Positions 39,542 to 42,528 of a stretch of DNA of 64,000 bases are shown here, in pieces. Position 1 is the stretch's first letter; each line of letters begins with the position of its first letter. Under the pieces are notes generated by a model that had not been told where the DNA came from, ran no database searches, and worked only from the letters and a program-made list of their open reading frames with translations. Origin of the DNA: Sedimentisphaera salicampi (GTDB taxonomy: Bacteria; Planctomycetota; Phycisphaerae; Sedimentisphaerales; Sedimentisphaeraceae). A program made the position numbers and the translations under genes. The stretch spans positions 1,550,001-1,614,000 of the forward strand of contig NZ_CP021023.1 in assembly GCF_002117005.1 (NCBI RefSeq), written 5' to 3'.

Positions 39542-39943
39542 ATGAAATTCAGCAGATCTACAGGTTACGGTTTAATTGCGGCAGCTTACATTGCTAAGAA
39601 TGGTGATCCGAAGACGGCTATTCTTGCATCAAGCATTGCCAAAGAATTCGACATTCCTCTCGAGTATTTGCTTAAGATTCTTCAGAATCTTGTAAGAGCA
39701 AATGTTCTCAGAAGCAAGAGAGGTCCGAGAGGCGGTTTTTATCTGGCAAAGCAGCCGGGCGATATCAACCTGCTCGAAATTATCGAAGCAGTTGACGGCC
39801 CAGCTAACAGCGAGATTCAGCTGCCGGAAAGATGTGATGAGCTTCCATATATGAAGCACATTACAGATGCTTGCAAAGAGGCAGTTGACAAGACAAAGAA
39901 TGTCTTGGTAAATGTTAAGCTTTCTGCAGTGATCAAAGGTTAA
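39542..39943 (+). CDS. Rrf2-family transcriptional regulator
   Basis: A 133-residue winged-helix regulator: MKFSRSTGYGLIAAAYIAKN, then IAKEFDIPLEYLLKILQNLV as the recognition region and RGPRGGFYLAKQPGDINLLE as the wing. The family senses Fe-S clusters, nitric oxide or cysteine status through a C-terminal Cys cluster. Here only two Cys (ERCDEL and DACKEA) remain where IscR has three, so the effector cannot be named. GGAGG precedes the ATG. The MazG-like gene follows after 12 bp. Confidence 0.88.
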   Translation: MKFSRSTGYGLIAAAYIAKNGDPKTAILASSIAKEFDIPLEYLLKILQNLVRANVLRSKRGPRGGFYLAKQPGDINLLEIIEAVDGPANSEIQLPERCDELPYMKHITDACKEAVDKTKNVLVNVKLSAVIKG

Positions 39944-40219: not shown

Positions 40220-40359
40220 TTTATGCATTGGCCGGAATGAACAGAGGGCCGGTGCTGTCTGTGCATACGTTCTTTAAAACATACGTTAAAAAACTGCTAA
40301 ACATGTGTTTAGGGTTGTTAAGTGTTTATTAACTTTATTTAAAACCGGGGGTTTACTCT

Positions 40360-40662
40360 ATGGCAAAGAAGACTGCTAAGAAAACTGCCAAAAAGACATC
40401 AAAGAAGACATCAACCAAGAAAAGTGCTGCAAAGAAGACAACCAAGAAGAAGACAACCAAGAAAAAACCAGCAAAGAAATCAGCACCAAAAGAGCCGCTT
40501 ATTGTAGCGAGCAAGGTTAAGGCCTACATCAAAGAGGGCGGAAAGATGACGGCATCAGAAACTCTTGATGCTATCAACGAAAAGATTTACGCTATGCTTG
40601 ATGATGCTATGGGCAGAACAGATTCTAACAACAGAAGCACTGTTAAGCCTCAGGACCTTTAA
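40360..40662 (+). CDS. Histone-fold protein with lysine-rich N-terminal tail
   Basis: A 100-residue DNA-binding protein in two parts. Residues 1-46 are a tail of AKKTAKKT-type repeats with 21 lysines. Residues 47-100 (LIVASKVKAYIKEGGKMTAS, then ETLDAINEKIYAMLDDAMGR, then NNRSTVKPQDL) read as a histone fold: short helix, loop, long helix, loop with the R-x-T-V-x-P-x-D-L pattern of archaeal and recently described bacterial histones. The third helix is nearly absent, as in the short bacterial histones. It likely coats or bends the nucleoid. A palindrome TAAACATGTGTTTA (40299-40312) lies upstream, and a terminator follows. Confidence 0.8.
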   Translation: MAKKTAKKTAKKTSKKTSTKKSAAKKTTKKKTTKKKPAKKSAPKEPLIVASKVKAYIKEGGKMTASETLDAINEKIYAMLDDAMGRTDSNNRSTVKPQDL

Positions 40663-40671
40663 TCAAAATTT

Positions 40672-40702
40672 TAAAAGCGGGGCTTATTTGCTCCGCTTTT
40701 TT
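40672..40702 (+). terminator. Intrinsic terminator after the histone gene
   Basis: AAGCGG and CCGCTT flank GGCTTATTTGCT, followed by seven Ts. Confidence 0.85.
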
Positions 40703-41124: not shown

Positions 41125-41282
41125 CCGCTGCTACCATCTTCCTGAGTGTTTATTGAGATTCAGGGAGGCGGCAGGAGATTTCTGCGCTTTCAATTCTCCT
41201 TCATCCCTGAAAAACAAATCTCTTGAATTAATATTCATCAGCCTTAGAGTATTCAAATAAACCTTTTTCAGGAAATATGAAT

Positions 41283-42161
41283 ATGTCTAAAACTAAAAGC
41301 AGTTTCAGAGGTTTCTTTGACCAGCCTCTCAGCGGAGATACAAATTATTACGCAGGCAGCAGGCGGGCTCCTTTTGCATGGTACGGCGGGAAGTATTACT
41401 ATTCACAGTGGATATTAGAGAACTTCCCCGAACACCGCATCTTTATTGAGCCTTTCGGGGGCGCTGGCAACATACTGCTTAACAAAATCGAGAGCGAAGT
41501 AGAGATATTTAACGATTTGGACAGCCGGATCACAAATTTTTACTACGTGCTCAGGGAAAAAGAACTTTTCGCAGAGCTGGAACGAAGACTTGCTCTAACC
41601 CCATATTCAAGAGAGGTTTTCGAGAAGGTTATTGCAGAGCCCGAACCCGAAGAGCCGGTACACAGGGCATACAACTTCTTCATAAAATGCAGGCAGAGCA
41701 TGGGGGGCACGGGAATGAGCAAGCTCAGTCCTGCAAGCTGGGTGATGAGCCTTAGAACGAGGCGGAAGATGGCTGAGCCGGTATCGAAGTATCTATCAAC
41801 TATTGAAGGGCTCGAACCAATCGCAGAGAGGTTCAGGAGCGTGGTAATTGAAAACTTAGATGCCGTAAAGCTGATCACCAAATACGACCGTGAGGACAGC
41901 CTGATATACTGCGACCCGCCCTACCTGCCTGAAACGAGAAACCAAAACACAAACACCTACGGCTTTGAGATGAGCGTTGAAGAGCATACCCAGCTTCTTG
42001 AGAAACTCAGAGAGTGCAGAGGCAAGGTTATTCTCAGCGGATACAATTCGAAGCTTTACACAGAAAAGCTCAGTAACTGGCGAAAAGATGAGCTTGAAAC
42101 GAAATCGTATATGAAGAATTCAGGGCAGGCCAGAACGGAAGTGCTTTGGATGAATTTTTAA
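41283..42161 (+). CDS. D12-class adenine-specific DNA methyltransferase
   Basis: N6-adenine methylase of the Dam/D12 group, 292 residues. FAWYGGKYYYSQWIL opens the SAM-binding fold, FIEPFGGAGNILL is motif I, YCDPPYLPET is the catalytic DPPY motif IV, and ILSGYNSKLY lies near the C-terminus. ATG 41283 is nine bases after GGA; ATG 41277 is closer and less likely. No restriction enzyme gene is next to it, so it looks like an orphan methylase, used for regulation or defence against foreign enzymes. Target site unknown. The SUI1 gene follows after 19 bp. Confidence 0.9.
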   Translation: MSKTKSSFRGFFDQPLSGDTNYYAGSRRAPFAWYGGKYYYSQWILENFPEHRIFIEPFGGAGNILLNKIESEVEIFNDLDSRITNFYYVLREKELFAELERRLALTPYSREVFEKVIAEPEPEEPVHRAYNFFIKCRQSMGGTGMSKLSPASWVMSLRTRRKMAEPVSKYLSTIEGLEPIAERFRSVVIENLDAVKLITKYDREDSLIYCDPPYLPETRNQNTNTYGFEMSVEEHTQLLEKLRECRGKVILSGYNSKLYTEKLSNWRKDELETKSYMKNSGQARTEVLWMNF

Positions 42162-42180: not shown

Positions 42181-42528
42181 ATGAAAGACAGGATAGTTTT
42201 TTCTACAGATTCAGGCAGGATGTGCCCGGAATGCGGCAAGCCCTTGGATGAATGCATCTGCTCTGAAATAGAAAAGCCCCGCCCAACAGACGGAATCGTT
42301 CGTATAAAACGGGAAACCAAAGGCCGCAAAGGCAAGGGAGTGAGCGTGGTTACAGGGCTCGGACTAACTGATTCTCAGCTTAAAGACCTCGCCAGCGAAC
42401 TCAAGAAAAAATGCGGCTGCGGGGGAAGCCTGAAGGATGGGCAAATCGAGATTCAGGGCGATAAGAGGGACGAGCTTGAGAAAATCCTCAAAGAAAAAGG
42501 ATACAAAGTAAAGCAGGCTGGCGGATAA
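42181..42528 (+). CDS. SUI1/YciH-family translation factor
   Basis: A 115-residue homologue of eIF1/YciH, which checks start-codon choice. The N-terminal 30 residues hold a CPECGKPLDECIC zinc-knuckle-like motif; the core has GKGVSVVTGLGLTDSQLKDL, KKKCGCGGSLKDGQIEIQGD and a KGYKVKQAGG end. GGAGG lies eight bases upstream of ATG. It ends convergent to the GT9 gene with 6 bp between the stops. Confidence 0.92.
   Translation: MKDRIVFSTDSGRMCPECGKPLDECICSEIEKPRPTDGIVRIKRETKGRKGKGVSVVTGLGLTDSQLKDLASELKKKCGCGGSLKDGQIEIQGDKRDELEKILKEKGYKVKQAGG

Follow-up and report, generated by a model that had tools for sequence, protein, structure and literature searches.

What does a histone fold that carries a very long lysine-rich tail do in a bacterium? 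Few histones are known from bacteria, and most of these come from metagenomes. The question is raised by a small gene in the window analysed here, a stretch of 64,000 nucleotides from the genome of Sedimentisphaera salicampi (NZ_CP021023.1). The open reading frame lies on the forward strand (40360-40662, +), runs from an ATG to a TAA stop codon (40660..40662, +) and encodes a product of 100 amino acids, MAKKTAKKTAKKTSKKTSTKKSAAKKTTKKKTTKKKPAKKSAPKEP followed by LIVASKVKAYIKEGGKMTASETLDAINEKIYAMLDDAMGRTDSNNRSTVKPQDL. Residues 1-46, encoded upstream of position 40498 (40360..40497, +), make up an N-terminal tail that is delimited by sequence, low pLDDT and tandem repeats, and residues 47-100 (40498..40659, +) make up a histone fold, delimited by sequence match, AlphaFold2 and structure search. 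The gene is single-copy in the genome. Two features had drawn an earlier sequence-only reading to this locus, namely 21 lysines in 44 residues and a C-terminal end NNRSTVKPQDL; both were found as described, the lysines by counting over residues 1-44 and the C-terminus in the 100-residue product.

That reading had also proposed a histone fold, which was borne out. HLp of Leptospira perolatii (9qt0) matched the protein without gaps in a phmmer search of solved structures (E=1.1e-17), and the match to HBb/Bd0055 was weaker (E=6e-4). In an AlphaFold2 single-chain model, built from an alignment of 35 sequences, the fold has a pLDDT of about 94-97 and the tail, predicted to be disordered, one of 58-69. 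Foldseek and VIA-align both ranked HLp at the top, with HBb and the archaeal HTkC next. The superposition on HLp gave an rmsd of 0.6-0.7 Å across 56-57 residues with 59-60% identity (PDB 9QT0/9QT1; 9qt1 at Z 9.6 and 0.7 Å in the structure search), and that on HBb an rmsd of 0.9 Å with about 35% identity. The nearest type is therefore HLp, and not the Bd0055 type with which comparison had been advised. The modelled helices span residues 50-59 (alpha-1), 66-89 (alpha-2) and, as a single turn, 97-99 (alpha-3; DSSP). The near absence of a third helix had thus been noticed correctly, but it is not the unusual trait it was taken for, because alpha-3 is likewise of one turn in both HLp and HBb (PMC12701072).

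Judging from its residues, the protein fits best among the bacterial face-to-face (FtF) alpha-3 histones. The residues R49, S52, N53 and R55 that build the HLp tetramer, and the R55-D62 clamp, are all present; together with T57 they correspond to the FtF signature R86, S89, N90, R92, T94 and D99 (40615..40656, +). Five of these (R86, N90, R92, T94 and D99) occupy positions 48, 52, 54, 56 and 61 of the FtF profile (R, N, R, T, D), the lysines of alpha-1 are found as K52, K54 and K58 (HLp K15, K17 and K21), the histone fold has a truncated alpha-3, and the E-values quoted above place the protein closer to FtF than to dimer histones. The interface R and N are absent in bacterial dimer histones (PMC11390915), and a classification as a dimer histone of the HBb/Bd0055 type was rejected for this reason. 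Across 133 distinct folds from related loci, the equivalents of HLp R49, N53, R55, T57 and D62 and of S14 and K15 in alpha-1 are invariant. All of the HLp DNA-contact residues A13, S14, K15, K17, K21, T27 and T57 are retained in the window protein; two further contacts, G29 and T56, are both serines, and the tetramer-interface residues T61 and F63 are Q and L, as in most of the order. An archaeal or eukaryotic nucleosomal histone was also rejected, given that the window genome yields no PF00808 match, that PF00125 scores 13.4 bits vs a cut-off of 26.4 and that alpha-3 has only one turn, as was a DUF1931 pseudodimer (PF09123, 14.1 bits vs 21.8; the fold of 54 residues is single, not double). 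A Pfam and NCBIfam scan of the protein returned nothing above cut-off, and the hits below it were low-complexity matches to the tail and the DUF1931 and core-histone models. PF00808 fails to reach this histone, which a search based on that model would overlook. What the locus contributes is a member of an already known kind of protein, with an extreme tail.

The tail (residues 1-46) contains 21 Lys, one Glu and no Arg, arranged in AKKT/TKKK-type repeats, and has a net charge of +20; the net charge of the fold is 0. The tail had been presented as a rarity among bacterial histones, a claim that did not survive comparison with the literature, since most bacterial FtF histones have H3-like positively charged tails (Schwab et al., 2024; PMC11390915). 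The tails of 58 histone genes from the order measure between 6 and 54 residues, with a median of 17; 55 of the 58 tails are net-positive and eight have at least 30 residues. The tail-coding DNA of the window gene contains tandem repeats of 12, 15 and 42 bp, and a search of the genome for a tail donor returned the histone gene alone. Long tails are built from differing repeat units (AKKT, KKVA, KKAAP, TTKKKA) and fall on different branches of a tree of ribosomal proteins (the input of which included antisense ORFs), which points to repeated lengthening; growth via short repeats appears to be the route. Tail charge and core charge are inversely related (raw rho -0.55), also in independent contrasts on a seven-ribosomal-protein tree (r -0.52, permutation p 0.0005), and the relation falls below significance (r -0.26, p 0.08) when the genus itself and G025 are removed. 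The pairing of a higher tail charge with a less basic core is suggestive, and a small number of lineages with long tails account for most of it. Some genomes of the order possess a second histone gene whose tail differs from that of the first (L029/L046, L022/L036, L009/L033), possibly a long and a short variant; in the pair of genome G048 the tails measure 25 and 8 residues. On a similar fold, a Leptospiraceae MAG (L149) bears an N-terminal extension that is acidic, not basic (MSEETNESTETTGRES).

Planctomycetota are among the carriers of FtF histones (Schwab et al., 2024; PMC11390915), and histone genes persist in this phylum (Hocher et al., 2023; PMC10627809). We found an orthologue in 55 of 59 related genomes, and the gene is present in 40 of the 41 good-quality genomes of the order Sedimentisphaerales. 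In a class-wide sample 43/45 genomes of the order matched vs 7/153 others, and in the phylum 134 of 292 did, spread over many families. The gene is nearly universal in the order, whereas few other members of the class have it. Among named loci with this fold, most belong to Sedimentisphaerales/Phycisphaerae MAGs; the Myxococcales and Leptospiraceae contribute single MAGs. HU was found in the window genome and in 52 of the 59 relatives, and the histone therefore probably shares the task of organising the DNA.

The 85 bp or so 5' of the start codon, a putative leader/promoter region (40276..40359, +), hardly differ between the two genomes of the genus, and the DNA beyond diverges; a sigma-70 consensus promoter was sought in this region and not found. 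The histone genes of the two genomes differ in 11 codons, 10 of them synonymous and one an A/S exchange in the tail. The near-unchanged leader and the excess of synonymous over non-synonymous differences argue for purifying selection, and with this comparison and the orthologues in 55 of 59 related genomes the reading frame is evidently no chance ORF. Directly 3' lies an intrinsic terminator-like hairpin of 11 pairs, six of them GC, followed by a T run (40673..40700, +), and the gene looks monocistronic. With six ribosomal-protein ORFs as the only reference set, its codon adaptation is the highest among the 58 ORFs of the window, and the second-highest without lysine codons; this codon usage indirectly implies strong expression, and the protein is presumably abundant. 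The neighbouring Rrf2 regulator, MazG-like, VanZ-like and D12-class methyltransferase genes are not common to histone loci beyond the genus (an Rrf2 match in L024/L122, both the same contig, is the exception), and a functional operon link was dismissed as unsupported because the neighbours are unshared. The Rrf2-family gene, two genes upstream (39542-39940), has a codon adaptation of 0.815, second-highest in the window and unusual for a regulator. Also near the histone gene is a SUI1/eIF1-type translation factor homologue (42181-42525; PF01253, E=3.5e-22), adjoined by the D12-class adenine methyltransferase (41277-42161).

A different neighbourhood of about 8 kb is conserved around the histone in 92 of 134 loci, which are partly redundant (e.g. 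L098, L100, L101 and L114). On its downstream side are genes for a GT4/5-type glycosyltransferase and a GH57 glycosidase, together with a glycogen-debranching-like gene. The upstream side holds, on the other strand, a DUF2007-like gene and the gene of a small R-rich protein (ERRKSVVDRRLGLDRRRGPG...FPTWTEVLEVIKALGYRKV) that matches no Pfam family. In the genus of the window and in G002 the histone no longer has these neighbours, but G004, which belongs to the same family, retains them. The R-rich protein was not found in the window genome by a single-sequence query without control.

How, then, might the protein act on DNA? We consider it probable (roughly 0.8) that it is a nucleoid-associated FtF alpha-3 histone forming a tetramer that wraps about 60 bp, with +20 tails neutralising or bridging the flanking DNA. 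Beyond the fold and the conserved residues, we infer the tetramer, the wrapping and the tail-DNA contacts by analogy with HLp, a ring-shaped tetramer that contacts DNA at the start of alpha-1, L1 and L2, winds about 60 bp around itself and alters the organisation of the E. coli nucleoid (PMC12701072). R86, S89, N90 and R92 would join two head-to-tail dimers into a closed tetramer, the core of which may form a ring and wrap its DNA without sequence preference. Each subunit would add one flexible tail, about +80 per tetramer, and the four tails could contact flanking or neighbouring DNA. With +20 on every subunit, the tails would supply more of the charge for compaction than the core, and because the core is neutral (net +3 in HLp) its own wrapping may be weaker. 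A special packing mode arising from the tail is possible. A more far-reaching idea is that in Sedimentisphaera-like bacteria a tail grown from repeats has taken over the DNA-binding charge of the core, in an evolution separate from that of eukaryotic and Asgard histone tails. What is left would be an uncharged FtF ring whose tails do most of the packing by bridging or condensing DNA, and lysine modification might tune the process; we offer it tentatively and think it rather doubtful.

The same charges could be read in favour of an H1-like polycation, in which the tail does most of the DNA binding and the fold serves only for oligomerisation, bringing four tails together so that they bridge or condense DNA, with little wrapping. 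An uncharged core next to a +20 tail would suit this, as would the loss of basic residues near L1 and L2 with respect to the order's common sequence (KSKK to KEGG, NRR to NNR) and the resemblance of the tail to HC2 (PF07382), below cut-off. However, the DNA-contact residues of the core are mostly conserved, and close orthologues manage with tails of only 6-8 residues, so that in this family the core must do essential work; we regard the polycation as unlikely. Very improbable is a dimer histone of the Bd0055/HBb type that bends or coats DNA: the fold is the same (0.9 Å, 35% identity), but HBb-type proteins lack the interface R and N that the window protein has, and its identity to HLp is far closer. 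Slightly less probable again is a histone-fold protein working outside chromatin, for example in RNA binding or regulation. The HU gene leaves room for such a role, against which stand the conserved DNA-contact residues, the near-universal occurrence in the order, the high codon adaptation and the precedent of HLp.

With the FtF histone as the preferred reading, the interest of the locus is that a single-contig genome encodes both HU and a histone with a very long lysine tail, and that across the order an almost unchanged core comes naturally with tails of anything from 6 to 54 residues. The role of histone tails in DNA packing thereby becomes directly testable outside eukaryotes; a narrow literature search found no paper testing what tails on bacterial FtF histones do. 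Among known systems, HC2/H1-like proteins (PF07382) share a repetitive Lys/Ala/Thr-rich stretch, whereas the match lies below the curated cut-off and is mainly confined to the tail. The archaeal FtF histone HTkC (PDB 9F2C) is alike in fold and FtF motif and differs in its identity of 24-25% and in belonging to a group generally without tails. HBb/Bd0055 (PDB 8FVX, 8CMP, 9EZZ) shares the histone fold, the truncated alpha-3 and the RD clamp, and is unlike the window protein in its 35% identity, in being a dimer without the FtF interface R and N, and in having no long tail. The FtF histones of Schwab et al. (PMC11390915) agree in family, phylum and a charged disordered N-terminal tail, and among them the window tail (46 residues, 21 Lys) is one of the longer ones, against a median of 17 in the order. 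Closest is HLp (PDB 9QT0-9QT2), alike in fold, fold length, one-turn alpha-3, tetramer residues, RD clamp and DNA-contact lysines. Nevertheless, HLp has 63 residues and no long lysine tail, its core is net +3 and not 0, it has F63 and T61 in place of L and Q, and it serves a Leptospira host in which HU is absent (PMC12701072), whereas the window histone shares its genome with HU.
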